A stretch of 64,000 bases of DNA from Vreelandella songnenensis (lineage in GTDB: Bacteria > Pseudomonadota > Gammaproteobacteria > Pseudomonadales > Halomonadaceae): assembly GCF_003002925.1 (NCBI RefSeq), contig NZ_PVTK01000003.1, forward strand, positions 186,001 to 250,000, written 5' to 3'. Positions 36,878 through 63,129 of this stretch are shown here, in pieces. The position numbers were made by a program, and so were the translations under genes. A model generated the notes under the pieces. The model worked only from the letters and a program-made list of their open reading frames with translations, did no database searches and was not told where the DNA came from. How positions within the stretch are numbered: the first letter of the stretch is position 1; each line of letters starts with the position of its first letter.

Positions 36878-36895
36878 TTGTATGATGTATGACGA
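36878..36895 (+). promoter_or_regulatory. Hexuronate-locus operator candidate 1
   Basis: TTGTATGATGTATGACGA, 16 of 18 identical to the best form of the recurring site. It lies ~65 bp before the decayed kdgD and ~430 bp before tctC, and is the only such site ahead of the tctCBA-gudD genes. The ~90 bp around it also resemble the region upstream of the intact kdgD. Confidence 0.7.
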
Positions 36896-36960
36896 TAGTT
36901 AGCGTCGTTAATATCTGTTTAAACCCATGTGGCGTGCCGCTAGAACTATGAAGGGGTTAC

Positions 36961-37275
36961 GTGAAGTTCTCTAAACAAGAGGTAATTAAAGCAGTTGGTG
37001 ATGACCCGTTATCGTTTCCGGTCTGTAGCTGATATGCCCGTTATCTTTTACATGGAACTGTTTAAAGGGAATACCGAAGCGGTCAAGAAAATACCAGCGA
37101 ATTTCCATTCCCTTTATCGATCTGCGCGACCATAAAGCAGGGGATGCCGTCAGCCTGATCAAGAGGCCGGTACCGACATTATCGGGTGCCCGGCGGGAAA
37201 GGCTTGCGCACCCTGGTAATGCCTACTCAAGAAGAGCGCAAACAGCTGGAACAACTGATTGAGTCGGCAAAGTAA
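36961..37275 (+). pseudogene. Decayed kdgD (5-dehydro-4-deoxyglucarate dehydratase) remnant
   Basis: The first 20 codons (GTG start; KFSKQEVIKAVGDDPLSFP) match the N terminus of the intact kdgD at 41930. The sequence then jumps to the C-terminal part (ADMPVIFYMELFKGNTEAVK, then PFIDLRDHKAG, DAVSLIK, DIIG.PAGK, VMPTQEERKQLEQLIESAK). About 200 internal codons, including the Schiff-base lysine region, are gone, and at least three frameshifts split the rest. The remnant stops 52 nt before tctC, implying an ancestral kdgD-tctCBA-gudD operon. Confidence 0.88.
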
Positions 37276-37327
37276 AACCCCGTTGATATCCCAAAAACAC
37301 TCACGCTCACAATCACAGGTGGAAACA

Positions 37328-38272
37328 ATGAAAAAGACAATACTGACCCTTTCCGTCGCTGCCGCTGCACTTTCCTCTGCTCTCGCTTTTGCCGATTATC
37401 CAGAGAAAAACATCGAGTTCATCGTACCTTGGAACGCAGGCGGTGGTGCCGACAACGTTGTGCGAGCACTACAGAATCCGGTTGAGGAAGCGCTGGGTAC
37501 GAACATCGTAGTACGCAACATTTCGGGTGGCGGTGGCGCAGTAGGCTTCTCAACCGCTGTTGCCGCCAAGACGGACGGTTACGTGATGACAATTCCGACC
37601 AATGCCACCTTCACGCTCGAAGGCCTGGGTAATGTCGGCTTCTCCTACACCGACTTTGAATACATTGCCCGCGTTCTGGTCGAGCCTTACGTTCTGGCCG
37701 TCAACAGCCAGAAAGGCTGGGGTTCGCTGGAGGAACTGGTCAACGACCTGAAAGAGAACGACCGTCCTCTGATGGTGGGTGCTTCAGGCGTCGGGTCTTC
37801 CACGCACATCATGGCCGTTGCGCTGGCTGAAGAGCTTGGCGTCCACTTTGAAGTAGTGCCTTATGACAGCGGCGCGAATGCCGTGACGGCCGCCATGGGT
37901 GGACACATCGATGCCGTCGTCCTGAATCCTTCAGAAGTGGTTTCCGCGATTGATTCCGGCCGCCTGAACGCCGTTGTCACAACGGGCGACGAGCGCAGCG
38001 GCGCACTGCCTGACTCCCCCACCATGCTGGAAGAGGGTTACGACTTCTCCATCAGCCAGTGGCGCGGTATTGCGGCACCCAAAGGCATCAGCCAGGAAGT
38101 CGAAGACCGCTGGGTGGAAGCCATCCAGGCTGCCGTTGAAGATCCCGAGTTCCAGCGCGCAGCCGAGATGATGGGGTCGGACATCATGCCGCTTTATGGC
38201 GATGAGCTTGATGCGTTCGTCGAAAACACGGCCCAACTGATGATCGAAGAAGCTGAAAAACTGGCTCAGTGA
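37328..38272 (+). CDS. tctC: TTT-family transporter substrate-binding protein
   Basis: A 314-residue periplasmic binding protein of the tripartite tricarboxylate transporter (TctC/Bug) family. A signal peptide (to LAFA) is followed by the family start YPEKNIEFIVPWNAGGGADN with the carboxylate-binding loop, and later GASGVGSSTH and GHIDAVVLNPSEV. ATG 37328 has AGGTGG 6 nt upstream. It leads the tctCBA-gudD operon. The linkage to gudD suggests a hexarate (glucarate or galactarate) or hexuronate substrate, rather than citrate; inference from context. Confidence 0.88.
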   Translation: MKKTILTLSVAAAALSSALAFADYPEKNIEFIVPWNAGGGADNVVRALQNPVEEALGTNIVVRNISGGGGAVGFSTAVAAKTDGYVMTIPTNATFTLEGLGNVGFSYTDFEYIARVLVEPYVLAVNSQKGWGSLEELVNDLKENDRPLMVGASGVGSSTHIMAVALAEELGVHFEVVPYDSGANAVTAAMGGHIDAVVLNPSEVVSAIDSGRLNAVVTTGDERSGALPDSPTMLEEGYDFSISQWRGIAAPKGISQEVEDRWVEAIQAAVEDPEFQRAAEMMGSDIMPLYGDELDAFVENTAQLMIEEAEKLAQ

Positions 38273-38279
38273 GGAAGAT

Positions 38280-38789
38280 ATGCAACGGCCTATTCCAGAA
38301 GCAACGTTTCATATTGTGCTGATAGGCCTTGTGGGTTACTTCCTGATGGAAAGTTATTCTATTCGAGGAAGCGCAGCTGGCGGCAGTCTGTCGCCGGCCT
38401 TTTTCCCCAAGGCAATCTGTGTATTTCTCATCGTTCTGCTGTTGCTGTCGCTGGTCAGGGTCATTATTGAGGGTGTGTCCAGCAAGGATGCCGACGAAGT
38501 GCGTGAAAGCAGCTTCCGAGTATCGGTCATTGCCTGGGTAACGGTACTTGCCCTGCTGATACTTTACGCCTTTCTGCTTGAACCCCTTGGCTATGTGGTC
38601 ACCACGGCGTTACTGATCTTCTGCATGGTGTCGACCCTGGTGCTGCTGAACAAGCAGGAGCAGAAAGCGTCCTTGAAAGGTGTGGCGGGGCTTGCCGGTT
38701 TTTCCATACTCACTTCGCTGGCCATCTTCATACTGTTCAGTAAAGGCTTCAGCATTATTCTGCCCACCCTGGGAATAGCCGGAGTTTAA
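38280..38789 (+). CDS. tctB: TTT-family transporter small membrane subunit
   Basis: A 169-residue inner-membrane protein with four hydrophobic helices, the TctB subunit of the tripartite tricarboxylate transporter. Size, topology and position between tctC and tctA identify it; sequence in this subunit is poorly conserved in general. It starts 7 nt after tctC and ends 2 nt before tctA. Confidence 0.87.
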   Translation: MQRPIPEATFHIVLIGLVGYFLMESYSIRGSAAGGSLSPAFFPKAICVFLIVLLLLSLVRVIIEGVSSKDADEVRESSFRVSVIAWVTVLALLILYAFLLEPLGYVVTTALLIFCMVSTLVLLNKQEQKASLKGVAGLAGFSILTSLAIFILFSKGFSIILPTLGIAGV

Positions 38790-38791
38790 TC

Positions 38792-40279
38792 ATGAATGAT
38801 TATATCGATGCACTAGGGCTTGTCTTCCAGGGGTATGTACTGCTGGCAATTGCAGGCGGAACGCTGCTCGGCCTGATCATGGGCGCGCTGCCGGGCCTGA
38901 CGGCGGCCATGGCGATTGCGCTGTTGCTGCCGCTGACCTTTGGCATGCCGCCGGTGATGGGGGTCGGCATGCTGCTGGGCACCTTGTGCGGTGCCATTGC
39001 GGGTGGCTCCGTATCGGCAACGCTGTTGAATATTCCAGGGACTCCCTCTTCTGTGGCAACAACGCTCGATGCCTTCCCCATGGCCCGTAGCGGTCAGGCG
39101 GGGCGAGCGCTGGGAATTGCCATTGTTGCCTCGTTTCTGGGTGGTATCTTCAGTGCGGTAGTGTTGAGTGTTCTTGCGCCACCCATCGCTGAATTTGCCC
39201 TGCGCTTTGGCGCCCCTGAGTACTTTGCGCTCAGCGTTTTTGGCCTGGTAATCATCGCGTCTGTTTCCAAGAACCTGGCGAAAGGTCTGGCGGCCGGACT
39301 TATCGGCCTGCTGCTGGCGACGGTCGGTTCTGATCCCATGGTTGGCAGTGCCCGGTTTACCTATGGAAACATGTCACTGTTGACCGGCATCAATCTTCTG
39401 CCGGCGCTTATTGGCCTGTTTGCGGTTTCACAGGTGCTGGCCGATGTCGTCGACTACTTCAAGACAGAAAAAGCCGATACGTCCAGTACACCCGTGGACA
39501 AGGCCTCGCCGCGCTGGATTGAGGTCATCAAGCACTGGAAGGTTGTCCTGACCAGCTCCGTGATTGGTACGATCGTGGGCGCCATTCCTGGCGCGGGCGG
39601 CAGTATTGCCTCCTTCCTGTCCTACGACCAAGCCAAGAAGATGTCCAAGACTCCCGAAAAATTCGGCAAGGGACACCCGGAAGGCATCATTGCCTCTGAA
39701 TCCTCGAATAACTCACTGGTCGGTGGCTCGCTGATTCCCATGCTCACCTTGGGCGTACCCGGTGAAGCGGCCACGGCCGTCTTGATGGGGGGGTTGATGA
39801 TTCAGGGTATTCGCCCAGGCCCGACGTTATTTACCGAACAGGGCGCCATTATCTACGGCATCTTCATTGCCTTCTTCGTCGCCAATATCTTCATGATGCT
39901 CTTTCAGTGGTTTGGTATCAGGCTGTTTATCAAGATATTGCAGATTCCACGTAAGCTCCTGATGGCGATGATCCTGGTCTTCTGCGTCATTGGTGTCTAC
40001 GCGGTGGACTCCAACATATTCAATGTTTATCTGATGCTGGCCTTCGGTGTTCTCGGGTTTTTCCTGAACAAGTATGGCTTTGGTACTGCGCCGGTCATTC
40101 TGGGCCTGATTCTGGGACCCATTGCAGAATCAAATCTGCGACGAGCGCTACTGGTATCAGGCGGCGACTGGTCTGTGTTTGTCTCTCGACCGATCAGCCT
40201 GGCGTTCCTGCTCGTTGCCCTGCTATTTCTGGCATTCAGCCTGTGGCAAAACGCCAAACATAAAACGACATCAGCTTAG
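38792..40279 (+). CDS. tctA: TTT-family transporter large membrane subunit
   Basis: A 495-residue, ~12-helix inner-membrane protein forming the translocation path. The two TctA signature regions are visible: [20 protein letters not shown] with the following [23 protein letters not shown], and the second-half [20 protein letters not shown] plus [20 protein letters not shown]. Translationally packed with tctB. The operon continues 11 nt later with gudD. Confidence 0.93.
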
Positions 40280-40290
40280 GGTTAATCACT

Positions 40291-41616
40291 ATGTTTCCAA
40301 AAATTACCTCAATGAAAGTGGTACCTGTCGCCGGTTACGATGGTTTTTTGCTTAACCTCAGCGGTGGTCATGCACCCTGGTTCATTCGCTGCGTCGTGAT
40401 TCTCGAAGACGATGCCGGTAACAAGGGCGTCGGTGAGATTCCTTCCAGTGCCGGTATTCTCAAGGGCCTGGAGCAGTGCCGCGGCATCGTCGAAGGCTCC
40501 ACCATCAACGCGTTCAAGCAGACGCTCAACAATGCCCGCTCGACGCTGGCCCAGAACGGCCGCGAAGAGCGCGGTCGCCAGACCTTCGATTTACGCGTAG
40601 CGGTTCATGTCGTGACTGGCCTTGAGTCGGCGCTGCTCGACCTTTACGGTCAGGCCGTCGGCCTGCCGGTAGCGGATCTTTTGGGCCAGTACGGCCGCCA
40701 GCGCGACGAAGTCGAGGTGCTGGGCTACCTGTTCCTGCTGGGCGACCCGGACAAGACCGATCTGCCTTACCCGAAGGCAACGTCCCCGGTGGATGCCTGG
40801 GACGAGGTGCGCTATCAAAAGGCACTGACGCCGGATGCCGTCGCGAATCTGGCCAAGGCCGCTTATGAGCGCTATGGGTTCAAGGACTTCAAGCTCAAGG
40901 GGGGTGTACTGCGCGGTGAGGAAGAGGCCGATTGCATTCGAGCGCTTCACGAAGCCTTCCCGGAGGCACGCTTGACGCTCGACCCCAATGGCGCCTGGAA
41001 GCTCGACGAGGCGGTGCGGGTTCTGGAGCCCATCAAGCATCTGCTCAGCTACGCGGAAGATCCCTGCGGTCAGGAAGAGAGCTACTCGGGGCGCGAAACC
41101 ATGGCCGAGTTCAAGAAGCGCACGGGGCTGCCTACCGCGACCAACATGATCGCGACCGATTTCAAGCAGCTGCAGTACGCCGTTCAGCTCAACGCGGTGG
41201 ATATCCCGCTGGCCGATTGCCACTTCTGGACCATGCAGAGCGCGGTCATGGTGGGTGAGCTGTGCAACGAGTGGGGCATGACCTGGGGCTCGCACAGCAA
41301 TAACCACTTCGATATTTCGCTTGCCATGATGACCCACGTGGCCGCGGCGTGCCCCGGCGAGATCACCGCGATCGACACGCACTGGATCTGGCAGGACGGC
41401 CAGCGCATCACCAAGGAGCCGTTCTTGATTCGCGACGGCAAGCTGAAGGTACCGACCACGCCCGGTCTCGGCGTTGAGCTGGACGAAGAGAAGCTGATGG
41501 AGGCGCATCAGCTCTACAAGACGCTGGACGTGACCCAGCGTAACGATGCCATGGCGATGCAGTATCTGGTAGCCGGCTGGGAGTTCGATCCCAAGCGGCC
41601 GGCGCTGGTGCGCTAA
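40291..41616 (+). CDS. gudD: D-glucarate dehydratase
   Basis: A 441-residue enolase-superfamily enzyme dehydrating D-glucarate (and usually L-idarate) to 5-dehydro-4-deoxy-D-glucarate. The match to E. coli GudD (446) runs along the whole length: [34 protein letters not shown], and [10 protein letters not shown]. Catalytic K201-x-K203 is in DFKLKGG, metal ligands are near D231 (LDPNGAW) and E256 (YAEDPCG), and the base His335 lies in SHSNNHFD. These correspond to K207, D235, E260 and H339 of E. coli. Last gene of the tct operon. Its product feeds KdgD. A paralogue acting on L-idarate/galactarate cannot be excluded. Confidence 0.93.
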
Positions 41617-41673: not shown

Positions 41674-41842
41674 GATCCTGACGTATCGATGAGTCAGGTT
41701 TTGCCCAGTGAATAGCTTGATTGATGCCGAGCGGATACTTGAAGAAGAAAGCCCGTACTCGCAGCGCGTCATCAGCCGTTAGCACTTTAGTCGAAACTCA
41801 TGCTATTTCGCTTGCGCGGCTTATCGGCGTTGATTACTTTCT

Positions 41843-41866
41843 AATTTGTATGATGTATTACAAATT
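41843..41866 (+). promoter_or_regulatory. Hexuronate-locus operator, best palindrome
   Basis: Perfect 8-bp arms AATTTGTA / TACAAATT flank TGATGTAT. The inner 18-mer (41846-41863) TTGTATGATGTATTACAA is the reference form of the recurring site. It lies 64 bp before the kdgD start. The T-G-T-n3-A-C-A core is of the GntR/FadR operator type, so a FadR-subfamily repressor is the likely binder. Confidence 0.75.
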
Positions 41867-41929: not shown

Positions 41930-42847
41930 GTGAAATTCTCCCAACAACAAGTAATACAAGCCGTTGGCGATGGATTGCTGTCGTTTCCCATTACCGATTT
42001 CGACCAGAACGGCCAATTCGACGAGCAAAGCTACCGCAAGCGCCTGGCGTGGTTCATCAGCCATGACATTTCCGCCGTCTTTGTCGCGGGAGGCACGGGA
42101 GAATTTTTCAACCTGACGCTTGAGGAGTACCGCCAGATCGTTCGCGTTGCCGTGGAGGTTATCGACGGCAAGCTGCCCGTGATCGCCAGCGCCGGATTGA
42201 GCGTCGAGGCCGGCAAGGCGTTTGCCCAGGCCGCTGAAGAGGCTGGCGCCGATGGCATTCTGCTGATGCCGCCGTACCTGACCGAGTGCCCCCAGGATGG
42301 GCTGGTTGAGTATGCCCGGCAAATCTGTGATTCCACCGCCGTCAACGTCATCTATTACAACCGGGGTAACGGCGTGCTTGACGCCCGCTCGGTCCAGGCG
42401 CTCGCCGATGCATGTCCGAACCTGATCGGTTTGAAGGATGGCAAAGGCGATATTCAGGCGCTCAACAAGATCATCAAGACCGTTGGAAACCGGCTGGTTT
42501 ACGTGGGTGGCGTACCTACGGCAGAGATTTTTGCCGAGGCGTATCTCTCCATCGGCGTCAATACCTACTCATCGGCGGTTTTCAATTTCGTACCCGACAT
42601 GGCGGTCACGTTCTACCGGGCGCTGCGCGGAGGAGACAAAGCCGTGGTCAAGCAGATCACCAACGACTTCTTCATCCCCTTCATCGACCTGCGTGACCAG
42701 AAGTCGGGCTACGCGGTGAGCCTGATCAAGGAGGGCGCGGACATTATCGGCCGCCCGGCGGGCAGCGTGCGTGCCCCCTTGACCATGCCTACCCCAGAGC
42801 AGCGCCAGCAGCTAGAGCAGCTTATTGAAGCGGCTCGCTCTTTCTGA
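41930..42847 (+). CDS. kdgD: 5-dehydro-4-deoxyglucarate dehydratase (decarboxylating)
   Basis: A 305-residue class I aldolase-like (DHDPS superfamily) enzyme that dehydrates and decarboxylates 5-dehydro-4-deoxy-D-glucarate to 2,5-dioxopentanoate (2-oxoglutarate semialdehyde). Features: the GGTGEFF carboxylate loop, the catalytic Tyr near 142-143 in VIYYNRGNG, and Schiff-base Lys169 in LIGLKDGKGD. GTG 41930 is the start, with AAGAGGG ~8 nt upstream. First gene of a kdgD-dctPQM-gci operon. A second intact copy begins at 63130 and a decayed one lies at 36961. The product would need a semialdehyde dehydrogenase, which is not in the window. Confidence 0.94.
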   Translation: MKFSQQQVIQAVGDGLLSFPITDFDQNGQFDEQSYRKRLAWFISHDISAVFVAGGTGEFFNLTLEEYRQIVRVAVEVIDGKLPVIASAGLSVEAGKAFAQAAEEAGADGILLMPPYLTECPQDGLVEYARQICDSTAVNVIYYNRGNGVLDARSVQALADACPNLIGLKDGKGDIQALNKIIKTVGNRLVYVGGVPTAEIFAEAYLSIGVNTYSSAVFNFVPDMAVTFYRALRGGDKAVVKQITNDFFIPFIDLRDQKSGYAVSLIKEGADIIGRPAGSVRAPLTMPTPEQRQQLEQLIEAARSF

Positions 42848-42884
42848 AACTTCAAACCCAATGCAGAACAAGAGGTGTTACGTG

Positions 42885-43877
42885 ATGAAAACAACAACTA
42901 TCCGTCGTCAGGCCCTGTTTGCCCTTACCAGTGCGTCGCTCCTGGCCGCGGCCATGTCGGCGCATGCCGACAACTGGCGAGGCTGGAACATTCATCCGGA
43001 TGGCTACCCGAATACCGTGGCGCTTGAAGCATTTGCTGAAGCGGTGGCCGAGCAGACCGAAGGCCGTGTCACGCCCCGTGTCTACAACAACGCCGTGCTG
43101 GGCGATCAGTCGGATGCCATCGAGCAGACGCGCAATGGCGCGCTGGATTTTGCCAACTTCAACATGGGCCCCATGGGGCCGATCGTCCGTGAAACCGACG
43201 TCTTCTCGCTGCCGTTCCTGTTTACCGACATTGACCACATGCATACGGTCATGGACGGTGAAATCGGCCAGCGCTTTGCCGATGCTCTGGAAGAGAAAGG
43301 CCTGGTCGTACTTTCCTGGTTCGACTCCGGCTCGCGCAGCATCTACAACACCAAGCGCCCGATCCACACGCCTGAAGACGTTGCAGGTTTGAAAATTCGC
43401 GTCATGAACAACGACCTGTACGTTGAAATGATGGAAGCGCTGGGAGGCAACGCCACGCCCATGGCTTACGGCGAGGTGTATCAGAGCCTGACCACAGGCG
43501 TGCTGGATGGCGCCGAGAACAACTACCCATCATTTGAGTCCAGCAACCACTACGAAGCGGCGGAGTACTACTCGCTGACCGAGCACCTGATCATTCCCGA
43601 GTGCCTGTGTGTGGCGAAGGCCAGCTGGGAAAAGCTTTCCGAAGAGGATCAGGAGATCGTTCGTGAGGAGGCTGTGAAGGCGTCGGAAATGCAGCGCGAG
43701 CTGTGGGTGGAAAGCTCTGAAGAGAGCCGCCAGATCATTCTTGATCATGGCGTCGAGATCAACGAAGTCGATGACAAGGCAGCCTTCCAGGCGCTGATGG
43801 AGCCGATGTACGAAAACTTCATCGCCAACAACCCCGGCACGGGCGAACTGATCGAGGAAATCAGGGCCGCTCAATAA
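42885..43877 (+). CDS. dctP: TRAP transporter substrate-binding protein (predicted hexuronate)
   Basis: A 330-residue periplasmic DctP-type binding protein. A signal peptide (to SAHA) is followed by the TRAP fold, including GALDFANFNMGPMGPI, the substrate-carboxylate Arg region GLKIRVMNNDLYVEMMEALGGNATPM, and the YQSLTTGVLDGAENNYPSFES segment. TRAP systems linked to uronate genes usually bind D-glucuronate or D-galacturonate, and the gene lies between kdgD and gci, which supports that. The ATG at 42885 is preferred (GTG at 42882 adjoins). A hairpin follows before dctQ. Confidence 0.88.
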   Translation: MKTTTIRRQALFALTSASLLAAAMSAHADNWRGWNIHPDGYPNTVALEAFAEAVAEQTEGRVTPRVYNNAVLGDQSDAIEQTRNGALDFANFNMGPMGPIVRETDVFSLPFLFTDIDHMHTVMDGEIGQRFADALEEKGLVVLSWFDSGSRSIYNTKRPIHTPEDVAGLKIRVMNNDLYVEMMEALGGNATPMAYGEVYQSLTTGVLDGAENNYPSFESSNHYEAAEYYSLTEHLIIPECLCVAKASWEKLSEEDQEIVREEAVKASEMQRELWVESSEESRQIILDHGVEINEVDDKAAFQALMEPMYENFIANNPGTGELIEEIRAAQ

Positions 43878-43890
43878 TTTCTTTGACCTG

Positions 43891-43916
43891 CTTCCGGCGG
43901 CCCTTGCCGCCGGAAG
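43891..43916 (+). terminator. Intercistronic hairpin dctP-dctQ
   Basis: A perfect 10-bp stem (CTTCCGGCGG / CCGCCGGAAG) with a 6-nt loop in the 57-nt gap. Such hairpins after binding-protein genes usually act as partial terminators or 3' stabilisers, raising the amount of binding protein over membrane subunits. Confidence 0.7.
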
Positions 43917-43934
43917 ATTGAAAGGGAAGGTGTC

Positions 43935-44471
43935 GTGAGTATAGAAATTGAAACGCCCAGCCATCGAAATAGCACGACAAGAAGCGGCGCTCTCGATCGC
44001 GTTCTGGACGGTATTGCCGAGCTGTGCGTGTGGGTGGCCGGTGTCATGCTGGTCGCTCTTATCGCTACCTTCGGCTGGCTGGTGTTCGGGCGTTACGTGC
44101 TCAACAACACGCCTACCTGGGTCGAGCAGACCTCCCTGGTACTGGTGGTCTACATCACCTGCCTTGGGGCGGCCGCCGGCGTTCGCTACCACAGCCATCT
44201 GAATATCGACTTCGTACGCGAGAGCTTTCCGCCCGCGTTACGTGCCTTGATGCATCACATCTCCGATCTGTTCATCCTCATCTTTGGCGGCTTCATGGCA
44301 GCCCAGGGCTGGAAGCTGGTGATGACCAACATGGAAAGAGCCATTCCCATGATTGGTATTCCGGAAAGCTTTCGTGCAGCGCCGCTGGTGATCTGTGGTG
44401 TGCTGATCATGCTGTTTGCCGGTGCGGATATCGTGCAGCGATTACTGTCTCGAAATACCCAGAGGACATAA
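43935..44471 (+). CDS. dctQ: TRAP transporter small membrane subunit
   Basis: A 178-residue inner-membrane protein with four helices (first around AGVMLVALIATFGWLVFGRYVL), the DctQ subunit. The ...TPTWVEQTSLVLVVYITCLGAAAGVRYHSHLNIDF segment is the most conserved part of the family. GTG 43935 is the start, with GGGAAGG upstream. It ends 3 nt before dctM. Confidence 0.9.
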   Translation: MSIEIETPSHRNSTTRSGALDRVLDGIAELCVWVAGVMLVALIATFGWLVFGRYVLNNTPTWVEQTSLVLVVYITCLGAAAGVRYHSHLNIDFVRESFPPALRALMHHISDLFILIFGGFMAAQGWKLVMTNMERAIPMIGIPESFRAAPLVICGVLIMLFAGADIVQRLLSRNTQRT

Positions 44472-44474
44472 GCC

Positions 44475-45755: not shown

Positions 45756-45776
45756 CGTCATGACAGGGACAACGCC

Positions 45777-52512: not shown

Positions 52513-53409
52513 TTATTCGGGCATGACGCCGATCTGCCCCATCCACTGGGCTAACAGGTGTGGCCAGCCGGTCACCGGTTTGCCCTGGGCACCGGCGATG
52601 CCAAAGCCGTGCCCGCCATCACGGAAGATATGCAGTTCGGCCTTCACGCCGGCGGCGTGAAGTGCGCTGTAAAACGCCACGGCATTGGCGGGCGGGACGG
52701 AAGGGTCGTCATCGGCCAGTACCAGAAACGTTTCAGGGGCATCGCTGCCAACGTGCTCTTCCGGGGAGTGGTCGCGCTTTTGCTGCGGCGTTGGGGTATC
52801 GCCCAGAAGGGCGGCACGCGAGCCTGCGTGAACGCCGTCATCCTGCATGGTGACAACTGGGTAAACCAGCGCGACAAAATCTGGCCGTGCCGAAATGGCC
52901 TGCTCATCGCTATCGGCCGGATACGCTTCTCTGCCGTATCCCGTGGCAAGCGATGCACCAAGGTGTCCCGCGGCCGAAAATCCCAGAAAGCCGATCCTTT
53001 CAGGGTCCAGACCCCATTCGTCGGCATGTCCGCGCACCAGACGCACTGCACGCTGGGCATCCGCCAGCGGCGCATCAGCGCGGTTGTCATGCCCTTCGCC
53101 AGGCAGGCGGTAGGTCAGAAGAAAGCTGGTAACCCCTAGCGTCGCCAGCGCCTTGGCAATTTCGACCCCCTCCTTGTCCAGTACTATCCGCCGGTAAGAG
53201 CCGCCGGGTGCGATAATGATGGAGGTGCCGTTAGGGTTCTCGGGAACCCAGGCGGTGACGCTGGGCGTAACGATACCCGTAAGCGCGCGGTCCGCGCGGA
53301 ACAGGTTATTTGAGCGCTCTTCCACCAAGGGGGCCAAGTCGGTTGGCGTGCCTTCAGGACGATCGTTCCAGAGCGGCAGCACCGCTTCGTGCTCTAGTGT
53401 TTCAGCCAT
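52513..53409 (-). CDS. Alpha/beta-hydrolase, predicted carbohydrate (pectin) esterase
   Basis: A 298-residue alpha/beta hydrolase without an obvious signal peptide, so probably cytoplasmic. The oxyanion-type motif is APGGSYRRI (HGG-like), the nucleophile elbow GFSAAGH (G-x-S-x-G variant), the acid is near LVLADDDPSVPP, and the His is in DGGHGFG. It belongs to the BD-FAE/acetyl-xylan-esterase-like group. Placement just downstream of pelX suggests deacetylation of imported pectic oligomers, analogous to PaeX of Dickeya; this is inference. Start 53409 has AGGAA ~8 nt upstream; the frame extends to 53430. Confidence 0.78.
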   Translation of the reverse strand: MAETLEHEAVLPLWNDRPEGTPTDLAPLVEERSNNLFRADRALTGIVTPSVTAWVPENPNGTSIIIAPGGSYRRIVLDKEGVEIAKALATLGVTSFLLTYRLPGEGHDNRADAPLADAQRAVRLVRGHADEWGLDPERIGFLGFSAAGHLGASLATGYGREAYPADSDEQAISARPDFVALVYPVVTMQDDGVHAGSRAALLGDTPTPQQKRDHSPEEHVGSDAPETFLVLADDDPSVPPANAVAFYSALHAAGVKAELHIFRDGGHGFGIAGAQGKPVTGWPHLLAQWMGQIGVMPE

Positions 53410-53449
53410 GGCAATTCCTGTACGCATCAAGCCTCACACGCATAAAAAA

Positions 53450-53483
53450 GAGTGCTTGAGGCTGAATATCACCTCAAGCACTC
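53450..53483 (-). terminator. Terminator of pelX
   Basis: A 12-bp stem (GAGTGCTTGAGG and complement) with a 10-nt loop, followed on the minus strand by TTTTTTATG. It separates pelX from the esterase gene, which may therefore need its own promoter or readthrough. Confidence 0.85.
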
Positions 53484-53496
53484 AACCCCAACCTGC

Positions 53497-55728: not shown

Positions 55729-55811
55729 GAATAAACCTTATGGTCTTTATGATTATTCTTGAAGGGCTGGCCACGACCCGAGAGAGGGTGGTGGCTCTAA
55801 AATGTGTCAAA

Positions 55812-55829
55812 AGATAATACATAGTACGT
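55812..55829 (-). promoter_or_regulatory. Operator candidate upstream of pelX
   Basis: Minus-strand 18-mer ACGTACTATGTATTATCT shares 11 of 18 positions with the reference site, including the TATGTATTA core. It lies ~85 bp before pelX. A weaker member of the set. Confidence 0.45.
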
Positions 55830-55888
55830 TTGATGCTACACATTAGCGAAAAGTATGACAGTGCTGATTCAAGATGCGGATATAGCCT

Positions 55889-56926
55889 TTAACGTATCTC
55901 GATCCAATCCGGGCTCTGGCCAACCGGCAGGCGATCAGTCAACGCTAGATAGCCGGTATTTTCGTCAATGCGATAACTCGCAATATGATGGGAGAACTGC
56001 CCGGCGGCAATCAGGTAGTGACCACAGGCGCTAAGCGCGAAACCGCGAGGGCGGTTTTCTGTTTCAAAATGCTTTTCGAAGATAAGTGTGCCATCTGGTT
56101 GCACGTTGAATAAGTGCAGCGTCGAAGTGGCTTTTTCGGAGGCATAAAGAAAGCGGCCATCTGGCGATATATGAATATCTGCTGCCTGAAACGCCTCTTG
56201 TTGATCTGGCAAGTGCGCCGTTTGCAGGTGGCTTAAACCTGCTGTGTCGTAACGAACGACGCTAACGGCTCCGTTGCGCTCGCCGATGATATAAGCGATA
56301 GGCTGGGCAGGGTGATAGGCAATATGCCTTGGCCCGGTGCCCGCTGAGAGCGTTAGTTCATCAACTTGCTGGACTGAAAAGGAGCTGCCGCCACCTTCCA
56401 CAAGAGATTCCCATTGCCATTGATATATAACGTCTTTACCCAGCCCGGTTGCCAAGATGGTCTTGTCATCTGGCGCCATGCTCAGCATGTGTGCGTTAAG
56501 AATTTCCCGAATACGGTGCGCTTGATCCGCGACACGGCGATCTTTCTGTATGCCAAAAATACTGACGTGATGATCGATAAACGATGCGCTGAGCAGGTGT
56601 GTGTCATCCGCGCTTGTCTGGATATAGGCCAGGTTGGACTCCACGGGCGTATTGCCCAGATGCTGCAGGCCGCCTTTTGGATCAATGGTGAAACTGGCAA
56701 TAAAGAACGGTTCACCGCGTGAAACGGCATAAAGCGTATTGCGCGCGCGCGATAGGGCAAGAGGCATGGCACCCCCGGGTTTTGCAAGACCTGGCAGGCG
56801 CATGTGGGACACGTATTCAAGCGTTCCAGTTGCTAGCGATAGAGTGACGGTATAAAGCTCTCCGCTTAGCGCGCAGCCTACATATAGCGTCTTTTTTTGA
56901 TCGATCATCGGGTCTTTCAATCCCAT
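55889..56926 (-). CDS. Seven-bladed beta-propeller lactonase (predicted aldarolactonase)
   Basis: A ~345-residue cytoplasmic protein of the 6-phosphogluconolactonase/3-carboxymuconate cyclase family (COG2706), seen from YVGCALSGELYTVTLSLATGTL, the repeats ending ...ISPDGRFLYASEKATSTLHLFNV, and GHYLIAAGQFSHHIASYRID. Some relatives (UxuL type) hydrolyse galactaro- and glucarolactones made by uronate dehydrogenase, and that role fits this locus better than pentose-phosphate metabolism. Start 56926 or the internal ATG at 56908 are both possible; neither has a strong SD. It is divergent from the racemase-type gene across an operator-containing region. Confidence 0.82.
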   Translation of the reverse strand: MGLKDPMIDQKKTLYVGCALSGELYTVTLSLATGTLEYVSHMRLPGLAKPGGAMPLALSRARNTLYAVSRGEPFFIASFTIDPKGGLQHLGNTPVESNLAYIQTSADDTHLLSASFIDHHVSIFGIQKDRRVADQAHRIREILNAHMLSMAPDDKTILATGLGKDVIYQWQWESLVEGGGSSFSVQQVDELTLSAGTGPRHIAYHPAQPIAYIIGERNGAVSVVRYDTAGLSHLQTAHLPDQQEAFQAADIHISPDGRFLYASEKATSTLHLFNVQPDGTLIFEKHFETENRPRGFALSACGHYLIAAGQFSHHIASYRIDENTGYLALTDRLPVGQSPDWIEIR

Positions 56927-57044
56927 GTTGAGTGTCTTTTATATGGCTTTAAACAATACTCATAAAATCGTTATTTGTGCTGATTGTCTGACTTAGTAAC
57001 TTCATACCATTGTCTATATTGTTGTCCGCAGTGTGTTTCTCTAA

Positions 57045-57068
57045 CATTAAACATATTATGTATTACCT
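57045..57068 (+). promoter_or_regulatory. Operator candidate between lactonase and racemase-type genes
   Basis: CATTAAACATATTATGTAT followed by TACCT. Nineteen bases are identical to 47121-47139 and the 18-mer 57051-57068 matches the reference site at 12 of 18. It sits in the 194-bp divergent region and could serve both genes. Confidence 0.62.
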
Positions 57069-57120: not shown

Positions 57121-58275
57121 ATGAAAATCGAATCCATATCCGTAGACGTTATCCGCTATGAATCCAAGTTGGCCCGCGACAGCGCCGGCCATGCGCATGC
57201 TGGTAAACCCAGCGAAGCACAGATTGCCATGCTCTCCATCACCGCTGAAGACGGCACCAAAGGGTACGCTTTTGCACCCAAGGAATTGATCCGGCCTTAC
57301 ATCGTTGAAAACTACTTCAAGAAGGCAGCCATTGGTAAGCCTGTGCATGCGCGGGAACTTATCTGGCAGGATCTCTGGTTACGCCAGCGGGGCAGCGGAG
57401 CACAGCTCACCGACCGCGCCATGGCGGTGCTCGATCAGGCGCTTTGGGATCTGGCCGGCCGCCAGTTGAACGTGCCTGTCTACCAACTGCTGGGCGGTGC
57501 GCGAAACAAGGTGAAAGCCTACGCCAGCACCATGTGCGGCGATGAAACGCAAGGCGGACTCTCCACGCCGGAAGAGTACGCTCGGTTTGCAGAGGATCTG
57601 GTCGCGCGTGGCTATCAAGGCATCAAGCTGCATACCTGGATGCCGCCGGTCAGTTTTGCTCCCAGTGTCGAGATGGATATCCGTGCCTGTGAGGCCGTGC
57701 GAGAGGCAGTAGGGCCCAATGTGGCGCTGATGCTGGATGGCTACCACTGGTACAACCGGATGGACGCCCTGAAAATTGGCCGCGCACTTTCACGCCTGGA
57801 TTTTGCCTGGTTTGAAGAGCCGATGCCCGAAGACTCCATGGAGTCCTACCGCTGGCTGACCCAGCAGGTAGACGTGCCGGTTATCGGCCCGGAAACCATT
57901 GGCGGCAAGCATCAGAGCCGTGCCAGCTGGGTTCAGCACAATGCCTGCGACATCCTGCGTGCCGGTGTGGCCAATGGTGGCGGCATCACGCCCTGTATCA
58001 AGGCAGCGCATCTGGCCGAAGCGTTCGGCATGGACTGTGAAATTCACGGCAACGGCGCGCCGAATCTGGCGGTCGTGGGGGCGATTACCAACTGCCAGTG
58101 GTACGAGCGTGGCCTGCTGCATCCGCATATGGATTACGACGAGGCACCTGCCTACTTGAACGTCATCGTCGATGAAATGGATGCCCAGGGTTTCGTTCAT
58201 CTGCCTGATCGCCCGGGCCTGGGTGAAAGCATCAATTTTGAGTACATCCAAAATAATACGTCAGAGAGCTACTGA
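57121..58275 (+). CDS. Mandelate-racemase-type acid-sugar dehydratase, substrate unassigned
   Basis: A 384-residue enolase-superfamily protein of the mandelate racemase subgroup. Metal ligands are D206 (LMLDGYHWY), E232 (WFEEPMPED) and E258 (GPETIGG), and the His/Asp dyad is H309 (CEIHGNG) with D277. The second-strand motif is K169-x-H171 (IKLHTW) instead of the K-x-K of mandelate racemase, glucarate dehydratase and the Gci at 45777, so the stereochemistry or substrate must differ. Galactarate, a galacturonate-derived aldonate or an anhydro-sugar acid are possible. It lies just upstream of the SSS symporter, in the same direction. Confidence 0.8.
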   Translation: MKIESISVDVIRYESKLARDSAGHAHAGKPSEAQIAMLSITAEDGTKGYAFAPKELIRPYIVENYFKKAAIGKPVHARELIWQDLWLRQRGSGAQLTDRAMAVLDQALWDLAGRQLNVPVYQLLGGARNKVKAYASTMCGDETQGGLSTPEEYARFAEDLVARGYQGIKLHTWMPPVSFAPSVEMDIRACEAVREAVGPNVALMLDGYHWYNRMDALKIGRALSRLDFAWFEEPMPEDSMESYRWLTQQVDVPVIGPETIGGKHQSRASWVQHNACDILRAGVANGGGITPCIKAAHLAEAFGMDCEIHGNGAPNLAVVGAITNCQWYERGLLHPHMDYDEAPAYLNVIVDEMDAQGFVHLPDRPGLGESINFEYIQNNTSESY

Positions 58276-58380
58276 TTCAGCTAATAGGCTGGGCTAGTTC
58301 ACCGCGTATATTCCAAAGCGCCAGCGTTAACACTATTCGGCAATGCCGATGTTCCAATAATAAAGTGATAAGGGATTCTT

Positions 58381-60171
58381 ATGAGCGTCGATGTCTGGGT
58401 AATATTGATTTACCTTGTCTTTCTGGTGGTCATTGGTTGGGTCTTTAAAAACTTCAACACCAATACCAGTGATTACTTCCGCGGCGGCGGTAACATGCTG
58501 TGGTGGCTGGTCGGCTCGACCGCTTTCATGACGCAATTCTCGGCCTGGACATTTACAGGTGCGGCCTCTCAGGCCTACGTGAGCGGCTTTGCGATCATTT
58601 TCCTGTTCATGGCCAATGCCGCCGGCTATTTCCTGAACTATGTGTATTTTGCCCCGCGATTCAGGCAACTGCGCGTAGTCACGGCCGCTGAAGCATTGAA
58701 GATGCGCTACGGCAAACCCAGTGAGCAGACCTTCATCTGGTTCAGCATGTTCGACGGCCTGGTATCGGCGGCAACCTGGTTGAGCGCGCTGGCTATCATC
58801 ACTTCGGCGGTTTTCGACGTGCCGCTTGAAACCGTTATCCTGCTGGCCGGCATCGCGGTAGTGGCCATGTCCGTTACCGGTGGCGCCTGGGCGGTGGTGG
58901 CGTCTGACTACGTTCAGATGCTCATCATCATGTCGGTAACCTTCGTATGCTTCTTCGTTGCCTGGGGCAATACCGACAGCATCGGCACTATCATCTCAAG
59001 CTACGACGGCGAGTTCCTGACCGGCAGTGGCTATGGCTATGCATGGCTGTTCGGCTTCTGGGTATTCATGCTGATCATCAAGCAGATCTTCATGATGAAC
59101 AACACGCTTAACGGCTACCGCTACATGTGTGCCAAGAACAGCAAGAATGCTCGCTATGGCGCGCTGTTCACACTTTGCCTGGCGTTGATCGGGCCGGTTG
59201 TGTGGTTCTTCCCGGCCTGGTTCATGCACGCCTATAGCCCTGAGTTTGCGCAAAACTTTACCATGTTGGGTGCCAGCGCCAATGAGGCGGTCTTCGTCGC
59301 GTTCGTCAGTGAATACATGCCGGCCGGCATGCTGGGTCTTCTGATGGCCGCCATGTTCGCCGCCAGCATGTCCTCCATGGACTCGGGTCTGAACCGTAAC
59401 GCTGGCTTCTTCGTGCGTAACTTCTACCTCTCGGTCATCAAGCCACACGCCACCGAGCAGGAAATGCTGCGCGTATCGCGCATCGTCACGCTCTGTTTCG
59501 GCGCCATCATCATTGGCATCAGCCTGTTCATCAACTCGCTCAAGAGCATGAGCCTGTTCGAGATCCTGCTGACGGCCAGCGCCTTGATCACGTTCCCGAT
59601 CACCATTCCCGCCATGCTCGGCCTGATCGTTCGCAAGACACCTGACTGGTCAGGCTGGGGAACGCTGGTAGTGGGTTGCATGGTTTCCTACGCTGTCGGC
59701 GCCTGGCTGAGCCCTGAACTGGTGACCAGTGTCATGGGCATGGACATCAGCCCGCGCGAATGGTCGGACTTCCGCGTTGCCTTCGCCATCGGTGCCCACG
59801 CGGTGATCACGGGCGGCTTCTTCCTGCTCAGTAGCCTGTTCTATAAAGCTGAAGCTCATTCGCCCGAGCGTGCAGCCGAGCGTCAGGAGATGTGGCAGCG
59901 CTGGGAAACGCCGGTAGAGAGCACTGATGCAGACCCGGCTGCCGACGCCGTGGACTACGGGCAGAAAATCATCCTGGGCCGCCTGATCCTGATTGGCAGT
60001 GTCATGGTCATGGGGTTATCGCTGCTGCCCAACTCTACCGATGGACGTCTCATCATGCTGCTGTGCGGGGCGCTGCTGCTGATCCCGGCTGTTCTGATGT
60101 TGATATCTGCTCGTTCAAGCAAGCGGGCCATGAAAGAAGCCGAGTTGCAGGCACACGTCGCCTATAAGTAG
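58381..60171 (+). CDS. Sodium:solute symporter (SSS family)
   Basis: A 596-residue inner-membrane symporter with 13-15 helices. The SSS core is clear: DYFRGGGNMLWWLVGSTAFMTQFSAWTFTGAASQAYVSG (Na2-site region) and LGLLMAAMFAASMSSMDSGLNRNAGFFVRNFY (helix 8-9 Ser motif). SSS proteins in pectin and alginate loci import uronates or unsaturated mono/disaccharides; the exact sugar is unknown. It begins 105 nt after the racemase-type gene and may form a two-gene operon with it. Confidence 0.9.
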   Translation: MSVDVWVILIYLVFLVVIGWVFKNFNTNTSDYFRGGGNMLWWLVGSTAFMTQFSAWTFTGAASQAYVSGFAIIFLFMANAAGYFLNYVYFAPRFRQLRVVTAAEALKMRYGKPSEQTFIWFSMFDGLVSAATWLSALAIITSAVFDVPLETVILLAGIAVVAMSVTGGAWAVVASDYVQMLIIMSVTFVCFFVAWGNTDSIGTIISSYDGEFLTGSGYGYAWLFGFWVFMLIIKQIFMMNNTLNGYRYMCAKNSKNARYGALFTLCLALIGPVVWFFPAWFMHAYSPEFAQNFTMLGASANEAVFVAFVSEYMPAGMLGLLMAAMFAASMSSMDSGLNRNAGFFVRNFYLSVIKPHATEQEMLRVSRIVTLCFGAIIIGISLFINSLKSMSLFEILLTASALITFPITIPAMLGLIVRKTPDWSGWGTLVVGCMVSYAVGAWLSPELVTSVMGMDISPREWSDFRVAFAIGAHAVITGGFFLLSSLFYKAEAHSPERAAERQEMWQRWETPVESTDADPAADAVDYGQKIILGRLILIGSVMVMGLSLLPNSTDGRLIMLLCGALLLIPAVLMLISARSSKRAMKEAELQAHVAYK

Positions 60172-60218: not shown

Positions 60219-60236
60219 AGGTAGTACGTCATAAAT
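60219..60236 (-). promoter_or_regulatory. Operator candidate upstream of kdgM
   Basis: On the minus strand ATTTATGACGTACTACCT matches the reference site at 12 of 18 positions and shares GTACTAC with the site before the PL2 lyase. It is ~75 bp before kdgM. Confidence 0.45.
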
Positions 60237-60311
60237 GATACAGGAGGGATTGACCCCGTAACGCCAGGCATGTTCGCAACAATAAAAAATCTTTAAATCA
60301 AGGTGAATTTA

Positions 60312-61031
60312 ATGAAAAACAAAACGTTAGTAACCGGGATCGCCGCGCTATCCACACTGCTGTGCAGCCACGCTTATGCAAGCTCGACGACCATTTCAAC
60401 CAAGTACGAACAGACCTTCAGAGAGAATCAGGATTATAAGGTTAAGTTTGGTGTTGGCCACGTTTTCGATAACGACATCGGCATCGCTTTCGAGCATCAG
60501 CGCCGGTGGCGAGACGAGGTCAGCGGCAGGCCGGAGCTTGCGGAAAACCTGTTCGGTCTTGGCTATACCTATACGCTGGATGAAGCGAAGCGCTGGTCCA
60601 TTCAGCCGAAAATCGAGTACAAGTTCAATCCAGGTTCAGAAACGGCTCGCCCCATGTTGCGGCTCAACTACCGACTCAGTGACGACTGGCGTTTAGGGGC
60701 ACGCTATCGATACGAGTATCAGACGTTCAGTGAAGGTGGCGGTGTGCGTTCCCGAGTGAACCGTTTCGACGGCTATGTAGGCTATGCACTGACCGACCGG
60801 ATCGGCTTGGCCTGGAATGCAAGCTACGCCTACGTGCTTGGGGATTCGGGCAGCATGTATACCGGCAACAGTGATCGCTGGGAGCATGAGTTTGGGGCGG
60901 CTTACCGGGTCAATGCGGCCAATACGCTGGCACTGACTTATAAGCGTAAAGATGAAACCCGCGATAGCGCGACCTACAACGCCGGTAAAAACAACGATGC
61001 GGTTCAGGTAACTTACAGCTACCGATTCTAG
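60312..61031 (+). CDS. kdgM: KdgM-family oligogalacturonate porin
   Basis: A 239-residue outer-membrane beta-barrel. The signal peptide ends at SHAYA, and amphipathic strands follow (EHQRRWRDE, RWSIQPKIEYKFNP, DWRLGARYRYEYQTF, TLALTYKRKDETRD) with the C-terminal aromatic end VQVTYSYRF. Size and the many inward-facing Arg/Lys positions match KdgM, a monomeric 12-strand channel for acidic oligogalacturonides. Start 60312 has AAGGTG 8 nt upstream. It is flanked by the symporter and a pectate lyase, which supports the substrate. Confidence 0.88.
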   Translation: MKNKTLVTGIAALSTLLCSHAYASSTTISTKYEQTFRENQDYKVKFGVGHVFDNDIGIAFEHQRRWRDEVSGRPELAENLFGLGYTYTLDEAKRWSIQPKIEYKFNPGSETARPMLRLNYRLSDDWRLGARYRYEYQTFSEGGGVRSRVNRFDGYVGYALTDRIGLAWNASYAYVLGDSGSMYTGNSDRWEHEFGAAYRVNAANTLALTYKRKDETRDSATYNAGKNNDAVQVTYSYRF

Positions 61032-61140
61032 AAAACGTCACTAACCGGGTGGCAGCTGGATGCTTTTAATGTCTCAAGCAGTGTTCGTTTATTCACGCTA
61101 AGCGATTTGATATTTATCCAGCGCCACCTTTCTTTGATAT

Positions 61141-61158
61141 TTGTATGATGTACTACAT
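61141..61158 (+). promoter_or_regulatory. Operator candidate upstream of the PL2 lyase
   Basis: TTGTATGATGTACTACAT, 16 of 18 identical to the reference site, ~64 bp before the lyase start, the same distance as at kdgD. Confidence 0.7.
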
Positions 61159-61221
61159 CTTCAATATCTTTTCTTCGCCGGCTGGGAGCTAACGCTGCTC
61201 AATTAACCCGGAGTGATTGAA

Positions 61222-62937
61222 ATGAATCTTCGTTTAGCCTTTAGAACATGCTGTGTACTGACCCTGGCAGCCAGTTATAACGTTTACGCTGACAGCGCGC
61301 GCCTGCAGGCGGTTCAGGCCTTTGCCGACACCGTCCTGGATCAGGCGAGCGATCACCACCACGGCGACACTCCTTCGCCGCTGCTGGCAAGCGGTGTAAA
61401 TCCGCGTACCGGAGAGCAGCTGGAGTGGGTGTTCCCTGATGGACGCAGGGCAGTGCTCTCCAACTTCTCGGCACAGCAGAATCTAATGCGCGTGCTGGTG
61501 GGGTTAAGCAACTTGACCGGTGACGAGCGTTACCGTGAGCAAGCCAAAGCCAACGTGCGCTATTACTTCGATAACTATCAGGATGACAGTGGGCTGCTGT
61601 TCTGGGGCGGGCACCGCTTCGTCAATCTGAAAACGCTTGAGCCGGAAGGGCCGAGCGAAAAAGAGATGGTCCACGAGCTGAAAAACGCCTACCCCTACTA
61701 TGAGCTGATGTTCGAGGTTGACCCGGACGCGACAATGGCGTTTATCCGCGGCTTCTGGAATGCTCATGTGTATGATTGGGAAGCCTTGGAAACCAGTCGC
61801 CACGGCGAGTATGGCCTGGAAATAGGGGAGCTGTGGGATAGCGACTTCACCCAGCAGCCGCCGTTCTTTGCAACCCGTGGCCTGAGCTTTCTCAATACGG
61901 GCAATGACCTGATCTACTCGGCGGGTCTGCTCTACCACTATAACGACGAACCCGGTGCGCTGACCTGGGCCAAGCGTCTTGCCGAGCAGTATGTTCTGCC
62001 GCGTAACCCTGAAACAGGGCTTGGCGTCTATCAGTTTACTCAGCCGCTCAAGCGCGATGAAACCGACGACGATAGCGATACGCTTTCCAAGTACGGTGAC
62101 CGTGCCCAGCGTCAGTTCGGCCCTGAATTCGGCCCCGATGCCCTGGAAGGCAACATGCTGCTGCGCGGGCGCACGGGCACCATCTACTCCGAAAACGCCT
62201 TGATGCAGCTGGCGCTGGCAGAATCACTCGGCGACGATGGCGAAGAGCTCAAGAAGTGGACGCTGGACGGATTAAAGGCCTTCGCCCAGTACGCCTACGA
62301 TGAGGAGACCAATACCTTCCGCCCCATGATTGCTGACGGAACGGATCTTTCCAGCTATACGCTGCCGCGTGATGGTTACTACGGCAAACAGGGCACCGTG
62401 TTGGAGCCTTATACGGCAGGCAGCAACTTCATGCTCTCCTACGCCCGCGCCTACACGCTCGAGCAGGATGCTGACCTGTGGCGGGTTGCCCGCGGCATAG
62501 CGAAAGGCCAGAAGCTTGGCGATATCGGCGATGCCGGTGGGCAGAATCCGCAGGTCAATCTGGAGACGGGCAACAGCGATCCGTATTCGATTTTTGCCCT
62601 GATCGACTTATGGCAGGCGACCCAGCAGCAGGCCTATCTGGATCTGGCCGAGAAAGTTGCTGACAACATTCTTGAAAATAAGCGCGTCAACGACTTTTTT
62701 GTAAGAAACCAGGAGGTGGAATACGCTGAAATCGACAGCATCGACCCCTACGCGCTACTGGCATTGGAAGCAGCGCAGCAGGGCGAAATTGATGCGGTAG
62801 CACCGTTTCTCAACGGTGGCGGCTTTACCGAAGGCGCCTATCACATGGCGAATGGCGACGTTCGATACTCGACCACCGACAATGAGCTGTTCTCGCTTAA
62901 ACCAGGTGAAGAGCTCATGCCCAATGGCAAGCGATAG
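61222..62937 (+). CDS. PL2-family periplasmic pectate lyase
   Basis: A 571-residue exported lyase with an (alpha/alpha)7-barrel fold expected for PL2. The signal peptide ends near NVYADS. Against Yersinia YePL2A (as I recall: H109, E130, catalytic R171, H172), this protein has H131 (WGGHRF), E152 (MVHELK), R193 and H194 (SRHGEY), every one at the same offset of 22, which strongly supports PL2 and retention of the transition-metal site and Arg base. Start 61222 has GGAG 8 nt upstream. Signal peptide and partner KdgM suggest action on imported oligogalacturonides in the periplasm. Confidence 0.9.
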   Translation: MNLRLAFRTCCVLTLAASYNVYADSARLQAVQAFADTVLDQASDHHHGDTPSPLLASGVNPRTGEQLEWVFPDGRRAVLSNFSAQQNLMRVLVGLSNLTGDERYREQAKANVRYYFDNYQDDSGLLFWGGHRFVNLKTLEPEGPSEKEMVHELKNAYPYYELMFEVDPDATMAFIRGFWNAHVYDWEALETSRHGEYGLEIGELWDSDFTQQPPFFATRGLSFLNTGNDLIYSAGLLYHYNDEPGALTWAKRLAEQYVLPRNPETGLGVYQFTQPLKRDETDDDSDTLSKYGDRAQRQFGPEFGPDALEGNMLLRGRTGTIYSENALMQLALAESLGDDGEELKKWTLDGLKAFAQYAYDEETNTFRPMIADGTDLSSYTLPRDGYYGKQGTVLEPYTAGSNFMLSYARAYTLEQDADLWRVARGIAKGQKLGDIGDAGGQNPQVNLETGNSDPYSIFALIDLWQATQQQAYLDLAEKVADNILENKRVNDFFVRNQEVEYAEIDSIDPYALLALEAAQQGEIDAVAPFLNGGGFTEGAYHMANGDVRYSTTDNELFSLKPGEELMPNGKR

Positions 62938-63129
62938 GTAGTCGTTAGTTCTAGAAGTACAGCGTCGATTAATCCCTGATCAATGAAAGGTCTTTATCGG
63001 CGCTGCCTGGTTCGGCAGTGCTGAATATCCAAAAGGGACAGGTTCCCACAAATTGATATTGATCCGGCTACTGCTTCCCTTTATAGTTGTGTGATGTATT
63101 ACAACGAGACATGATACAGGAATAAAAAT
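62938..63129. other. Intergenic region before the second kdgD
   Basis: 192 bp with no gene. It contains the strong operator at 63087-63104 and the promoter of the second kdgD; no terminator hairpin for the lyase gene was identified. Confidence 0.6.
63087..63104 (+). promoter_or_regulatory. Operator candidate upstream of the second kdgD
   Basis: TTGTGTGATGTATTACAA, 17 of 18 identical to the reference site, with arms GTTGT / ACAAC. It lies 25 bp before the start codon, closer than at the first kdgD. Confidence 0.75.

Follow-up and report, generated by a model that had tools for sequence, protein, structure and literature searches.

The window, as the whole 64,000-nucleotide stretch analysed here is called (C3:186001-250000, within the 3.69-Mb, 34-contig genome of Vreelandella songnenensis), is filled from 37 kb on by a pectin and hexuronate locus. 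The AT-rich sites that stand ahead of its operons are probably the operators of one GguR-type repressor in the GntR family (FadR subfamily, FCD domain), whose gene is located at C3:251947-252666, 1.95 kb beyond the right edge of the window. Two classes of site can be told apart. Profile matches for both are confined to the locus genome-wide, the sites are conserved in related genomes and co-occur with the regulator gene, and class-1 sites adjoin promoter-like alignment columns.

An earlier note on this DNA had described eight versions of a single palindromic operator, strong and weak, most of them 25-145 bp ahead of a first gene, and had placed the GntR/FadR-type regulator outside the window, perhaps just right of its edge. 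All eight sequences are present at the coordinates it gave, the core is of GntR/FadR type (GT-AYK-AC), and the GntR gene does lie just past the right edge. The idea of one regulon is retained here, while the single operator gives way to two classes of four and three sites and a doubtful site ahead of kdgM. The distances mostly hold as well, except that site 36878 is 364 bp before the listed start of tctC. The candidate operators are as follows.

36878 to 36895, + strand: class 1, upstream of tctCBA-gudD, 364 bp ahead of the listed tctC start with a kdgD-like remnant between
41846 to 41863, + strand: class 1, before kdgD1-TRAP(dctPQM)-mle1; perfect consensus, footprint rank 1/186
47125 to 47142, + strand: class 2, before the Opp-type ABC transporter genes (oppA); class-2 profile and footprint
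55814 to 55831, - strand: class 2, before the pelX-like gene; class-2 profile and footprint
57049 to 57066, + strand: class 2, between the divergent lactonase gene (-) and mle2/SSF (+); class-2 profile and footprint
60219 to 60236, - strand: probable weak operator ahead of the kdgM porin gene, in a block with partial conservation across 7 sequences; matched by neither profile
61141 to 61158, + strand: class 1, before pelW; strong match, not conserved in the 3 relatives aligned
63087 to 63104, + strand: class 1, 26 bp ahead of kdgD2; footprint rank 1/136

Two operator classes

Scored against the one consensus TTGTATGATGTATTACAA, the eight sites fall into strong and weak ones. Mismatches number 0 at 41846, 1 at 63087 and 2 at 36878 and 61141, and four such matches are far above chance: in 200 Markov-1 random windows, matches with 2 mismatches averaged 0.005 per window, and matches with 0-1 did not occur. 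The sequences noted at 47127, 57051 and 60219 have 6 mismatches each and that at 55812 has more (7 by eye). At 6 mismatches random windows hold 9.9 matches against 11 observed, and the weak sites, scored in this way, are no better than chance. A common consensus for all eight was therefore rejected, since it blends two classes and leaves the weak members at chance level. Three of the weak sites are real because they are members of a second conserved class, AAACATAYTATGTATKAY, which was recognised by aligning the upstream regions of relatives.

Class 1, approximately TTGTATGATGTATKACAW, stands ahead of the uronate/aldarate operons and pelW (sites 36878, 41846, 61141 and 63087), and class 2 ahead of oppA, pelX and the lactonase/mle2 pair (47125, 55814 on the minus strand, and 57049). 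ATGTATKAY is common to both, whereas the left box differs, TTGTATG in class 1 and AAACATAY in class 2. The class-1 core is of FadR type, ATGTATKACAW, with GT and AC three apart, and an almost invariant TTGTA box in the same direction lies to its left. The operator is thus palindromic, as the earlier note had it, in its core ATGTATTACAT; the whole 18-mer, with its extra box, is no plain palindrome. In class 2 the left box (AAACATA) has the opposite orientation, so that ACATAYTATGT is itself palindromic, and the right half is weaker, the last base of the core being C in 13 of 23 sites and T in 10.

The core of the FadR subfamily, NyGTM-N0-1-KACNy, is present as GTA-Y-KAC in the 73 class-1 sites of related genomes described below, where it was fixed by the search pattern; the base that follows is A in 56 of the 73, and the next is A or T in all of them. 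FadR-type sites are A/T-rich palindromes with GT and AC mostly three apart, and many have additional half-sites 7-12 nt from the palindrome (PMC4494728). The extra box of the present locus differs from these in that class-1 sites hardly vary in it and class-2 sites have it in the opposite direction.

Specificity within the genome

One profile per class was built from relatives' sites only, the source genome being left out (for class 1, 30 of the 62 different sequences; for class 2, 18 of the 20). Across the whole genome, with E up to 10, the class-1 profile found at least four sites, 36878, 41846, 61141 and 63087, and the class-2 profile at least three, 47125, 55814(-) and 57049. Neither picked up the sites of the other class in this search, and neither matched the kdgM site at 60219. 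Matches were thus confined to the locus; equally frequent matches elsewhere, which the earlier note had named as a refutation, were not seen. A plain class-1 pattern allowing up to 3 mismatches recovered the four class-1 sites at 0, 0, 0 and 2 mismatches. No relatives were found in viral contigs.

Conservation in Halomonas and Vreelandella

The exact class-1 core TGTATGATGTAYKAC occurs in 36 of 82 genomes of the genus, at 73 sites (reversed control, 1 match). In a survey of downstream genes that leaves out nine named loci, 68 of the 73 are followed, 23-238 bp on, by the start of a kdgD, gudD, tctC, dctP or pelW homologue, a count in which some tctC matches are just 28-30% identical and the homologue for 36878 is the broken remnant. 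Behind the other five, the next gene lacks a reference homologue and by eye looks like a secreted binding protein; in two genomes (G043 and G024) such a gene stands upstream of a TctA homologue and gudD. These genes form a binding-protein-like family of about 330-358 aa (L055, complement near 8137; G024, G098, G047 and G110), and the one of five that was searched had no Pfam family at E up to 0.001.

Class 2, at up to 1 mismatch, is represented by 25 sites in 9 of the 82 genomes (reversed control, none), and these are the 9 genomes with pelX. The 23 sites examined stand ahead of mle2 (9), pelX (8) and oppA (6); a hybrid site discussed below and site 55814 of the source genome are among the 25 and outside the 23, which were taken with a different pattern.

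Footprints, ranked among all 18-base windows of aligned upstream regions, place the site first at kdgD2 (1/136) and kdgD1 (1/186; 7 of 9 rows are true, those of G109 and G110 being the kdgD2 promoter). Class-2 sites rank 2/216 at oppA (6 sequences, with the block split by MAFFT after the core for G109), 2/206 at pelX (9) and 11/196 at mle2 (9). The kdgM site ranks 10/156 in 7 sequences, and the tctC site, with 2 sequences only, has no rank. By footprints and downstream genes the sites are conserved in related loci, with the exception of that at pelW, and the lack of conservation that the earlier note had named as a refutation was not seen. About 46 bp upstream of the mle2 site, near 57004-57021, lies another conserved block, CCATTGTCTATATTG, which ranks first and outranks the site itself; it is perhaps part of the promoter of the divergent pair.

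That the sites are a chance likeness of AT-rich promoter sequence is scarcely credible. The weak ones do score at chance level against the class-1 consensus, but the conserved blocks, the specificity within the genome and the placement across genomes all argue otherwise. The profile searches speak against chance for seven sites; only the kdgM site is left, and it is only probably an operator.

The candidate GntR/FCD regulator

A search with PF07729 gave 13 FCD-domain genes in the genome. The candidate at C3:251947-252666 is fourth in the run behind site 63087 (kdgD2, amidohydrolase, a short-chain dehydrogenase/reductase (SDR) that is Udh by position, GntR, aldehyde dehydrogenase), and would therefore repress itself. 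Its FCD domain matches PF07729 at C3:252253-252633 (E 4e-23), its N-terminal part matches GntR-family models, and its nearest solved structures by sequence are PdhR and NanR. Assignment as ExuR, UxuR or NanR was rejected, as all three scores fall under curated cut-offs. ExuR and UxuR of E. coli, going by their NCBIfam names, also belong to the GntR family and regulate hexuronate genes, but the present protein scores 105.7 and 104.2 bits against their cut-offs of 396 and 442.

The regulator (E up to 1e-40) is found in 40 of the 82 genomes, including all 36 with an exact class-1 core (Fisher 4e-19, relatedness ignored), and in the other four the fetched region holds a site with 2 mismatches. For most class-1 sites (65 of 73) the regulator gene is no more than 30 kb away; of the remaining eight, six are on different contigs from it, one is at a distance of 36.5 kb, and one, before a tctC homologue, at 2.5 Mb. 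Close relatives of the gene occur at nine loci, in V. nanhaiensis, V. zhanjiangensis, V. malpeensis, V. populi, V. nigrificans and four Halomonas isolates.

The DNA-binding helix SRTVIREAITHLKS is unchanged in 26 of the 30 relatives' proteins aligned (of 42 copies). Three have I changed to V, and one, at 38% identity, is more changed. This is the case even though overall identity is no more than 52-56% for 23 of the 30, the three I-to-V proteins among them. Among the genome's other FCD regulators, the 11 distinct ones compared (of 12; L011 and L014 are one open reading frame (ORF)) differ in the helix and have at most 41% identity in the DNA-binding domain. In 14 of 19 mapped genomes of the 52-57% group the regulator gene has a site of its own 58-59 bp upstream, which is TTGTACGATATAATACAA in 11.

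One regulator or two

We infer that one regulator reads both classes. The kdgD1 promoter of G004 (G004:C13:49022) carries a class-1/class-2 hybrid, AAACATATGATGTATTAC, and the presence of such a site at an orthologous promoter speaks for a single reader. The alternative, that the GguR-type protein reads class 1 alone and that class 2, ahead of the pectin genes, is read by another factor with its gene somewhere else, is less likely. It would account for the different left halves (TTGTATG and AAACATAY), for the failure of the profiles to cross-match at E up to 10, and for the restriction of class 2 to the 9 pelX genomes. Against it stand the shared ATGTATKAY, the hybrid site, and the fact that all 9 class-2 genomes have an 81-100% form of the regulator. 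No other regulator was recognised from window position 33062 to L008:14116, a span in which not every ORF was covered and which begins right of 33 kb.

Several observations weigh against a single GguR-type repressor acting at all the sites. The profile searches scored 150 of 653 (class 1) and 150 of 402 (class 2) first-look candidates, so that weak sites may escape, and the plain pattern had 2 further matches elsewhere at 3 mismatches (reversed control, 6 matches). Site 61141 at pelW is not conserved, with a footprint rank of 88/186 in 4 sequences (3 relatives aligned), and the kdgM site is weak. Co-occurrence with class-1 sites is common to the catabolic genes too, and is therefore by itself no proof of the binder. 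As class 2 occurs in no genomes but the 9 that have pelX, co-occurrence there cannot separate the GguR-type regulator from another one. Finally, related genomes are non-independent samples. The preferred reading is still that of one GguR-type repressor.

Promoters, probable repression and an ACTU-like element

The 73 class-1 sites give 71 distinct upstream sequences. Ahead of the core, TAnnnT is present at -12 to -7 in 48 of the 71, against a background of 0.011, and 59 have TTGC or TTGT in the -35 region. For kdgD1 the conservation of columns points to the following promoter.

41812 to 41840, + strand: putative kdgD1 promoter, -35 TTGCGC (41812-41817), 17-bp spacer, -10 TACTTT (41835-41840)

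The transcription start would fall inside the operator or at its edge, which fits steric repression and makes repression the most likely mode of action. Some GntR proteins do activate, but activation from these sites seems improbable. The site is just downstream of the putative -10, and in six mapped pectin-locus genomes it is 24-26 bp ahead of kdgD2, both positions that fit blocking, and the usual place of an activator is taken, in 63 of 71 promoters, by a conserved element of a different kind.

With repression as the preferred mode, the locus would work as follows. When no sugar acid is present, a dimer of the repressor would sit on the operator, over the transcription start, and block RNA polymerase. 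A uronate or aldarate effector would bind the FCD domain and release it. Release would switch on uptake, through the tripartite tricarboxylate transporter (TTT), the TRAP, Opp and SSF systems and the KdgM-type porin; pectin cleavage, by the PelX-, PelW- and PaeX-like enzymes; and the oxidative uronate pathway, with Udh, Gli and Gci (all three by position), a GudD-like enzyme, KdgD, and an aldehyde dehydrogenase taken as ketoglutarate semialdehyde (KGSA) dehydrogenase. Class 1 would be the full operator, core ATGTATKACAW with the TTGTA box at left, and class 2 would mark the pectin part. Binding, repression, the effector and the reading of class 2 by the same protein are all steps that we infer.

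The conserved element in the activator position is ACTTTRGTY, found in 63 of 71 class-1 promoters, mostly at -63. None of the 23 class-2 promoters has it, and it is absent from the upstream background taken from these sequences. Two copies in the window are the following.

36816 to 36827, + strand: ACTU-like element ACTTTGGTCTAA, upstream of the 36878 promoter
41784 to 41795, + strand: ACTU-like element ACTTTAGTCGAA, upstream of the 41846 promoter

Of the eight class-1 promoters that lack ACTTTRGTY, six have AGNCTAAAGTCTAG in common, closer to the site, and the remaining two belong to pelW of the source genome and kdgD2 of G003. In P. fluorescens, CrbR requires the ACTU motif to activate acs, and the motif adjoins an RpoD promoter on its upstream side (PMC5715377). 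The present element resembles that of CrbR/ErdR in being of the ACY-N3-GTY type and just ahead of a sigma-70-type promoter. It differs in standing before uronate promoters, where ACTU in that source is known at acetate genes, and, although its spacing fits the published ACY-N3-GTC matches, in having GTT instead of GTC in many class-1 promoters. The likeness is a lead only. At up to 1 mismatch the whole genome has 28 matches against 57 for the reversed control, and therefore no regulon is claimed from the element. Its four exact matches in the genome include the two in the locus, one inside a long frame on the opposite strand, and one with no ORF start within 260 bp. A further sequence, ACTTTAGTTTAA at L207 (G000:C3:328216), is 49 bp ahead of an opposite-strand gene that by eye is acetate-kinase-like.

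Genes of the locus

Enzyme roles in the locus were assigned by homology and position. In particular, Udh, Gli and KGSA dehydrogenase are names drawn from family and position, all under curated cut-offs.

37259 to 41616, + strand: tctC, tctB, tctA and a glucarate-dehydratase-like (gudD-like) gene, the last at 689 bits against a cut-off of 828.7
41930 to 46913, + strand: kdgD1 (above curated cut-off), TRAP transporter dctPQM, and MR_MLE enzyme mle1 (Gci by position)
47276 to 52444, + strand: Opp-type ABC transporter, five genes including oppA
52513 to 56926, - strand: paeX-like esterase and pelX-like exo-pectate lyase (both below curated cut-offs), and a lactonase family protein
57121 to 60171, + strand: mle2 (MR_MLE) and an SSF symporter
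60303 to 61031, + strand: KdgM-family porin gene
61213 to 62937, + strand: pelW-like periplasmic pectate lyase (Pfam Pectate_lyase_2; below the NCBIfam PelW cut-off)
63130 to 64000, continuing past the window edge, + strand: kdgD2, 5-dehydro-4-deoxyglucarate dehydratase, 305 aa, above curated cut-off

Between operator 36878 and tctC, at about 37000-37250, is a broken kdgD-like remnant with stop codons in three frames.

Possible history of the locus

Identity to three genomes without pectin genes (G028, G055 and G054) is uneven along the locus. It is 93% for dctM and 85% for mle1, falls to 67-69% for the amidohydrolase, 66% for the Udh-like protein and 55% for the regulator, and is again 84-85% for the aldehyde dehydrogenase and 77-78% for Ldh2. 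The pectin genes are located where identity falls, and one genome (G109) has both versions of the regulator. This pattern suggests that a cassette may have replaced the middle of the locus, bringing its own version of the regulator. On the other side, dctQ is also merely 73-75% identical, and regulators may simply evolve faster.

With PF04962 and PF07470 at E up to 0.001, no match for KduI or for GH88/GH105 was found in the 34 contigs of the genome, although it encodes PelW- and PelX-like lyases; these genome-wide searches did not extend to oligogalacturonate lyase. A fuller history can be proposed only tentatively. A pectin cassette would have entered an ancestral uronate locus under GguR control, exchanged the amidohydrolase, Udh and regulator genes there for diverged versions, and brought in class-2 sites read by the same regulator. 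The uronate half would be under the ACTU-like activator site too, which would tie uronate use to the overall carbon state of the cell. With KduI and GH88/GH105 not found, the unsaturated products of the PelW- and PelX-like lyases may go through Udh, by a presumed oxidation of 4-deoxy-5-ketouronate at C1, straight to KdgD, independently of KduI.

Relation to GguR and significance

GguR of Halomonas HL-48 and HL-93 controls galactarate/glucarate genes together with TctABC, Udh, Gli, Gci and UxuPQM (PMC5507952). The present locus is alike in its GntR-family regulator, here with an FCD domain, and in the genes found with it, including a UxuPQM-type TRAP transporter. The regulator gene, between the SDR and aldehyde dehydrogenase genes, adjoins the oxidative uronate/aldarate genes, and operators 36878, 41846 and 63087 are ahead of the galactarate/glucarate and TctABC genes and the Udh/Gli/Gci/UxuPQM genes. 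Section 13 of that source names no pectate lyases, porin or Opp transporter for this regulon (PMC5507952). Here pectin genes have an operator class of their own, and the cassette-like drop in identity and the ACTU-like element are further additions. The locus is most likely the published GguR regulon extended to pectin, an assignment made on gene content and neighbourhood. Among the best text-search matches in the open-licence literature, no title was found on such an operator in pectin loci of the genus. In substance the original finding is correct, and it is of an ordinary kind; less ordinary are the second class, the pattern that resembles a cassette, and the ACTU-like element.

The locus offers a compact, testable regulon, a candidate regulator gene with two naturally occurring classes of operator, both of which may be read by a single DNA-binding helix. 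It is also an apparent case of a catabolic cassette that has moved together with the regulator and sites belonging to it. Should the ACTU-like element be real, it would connect the use of uronates by halomonads with a global signal of carbon state.

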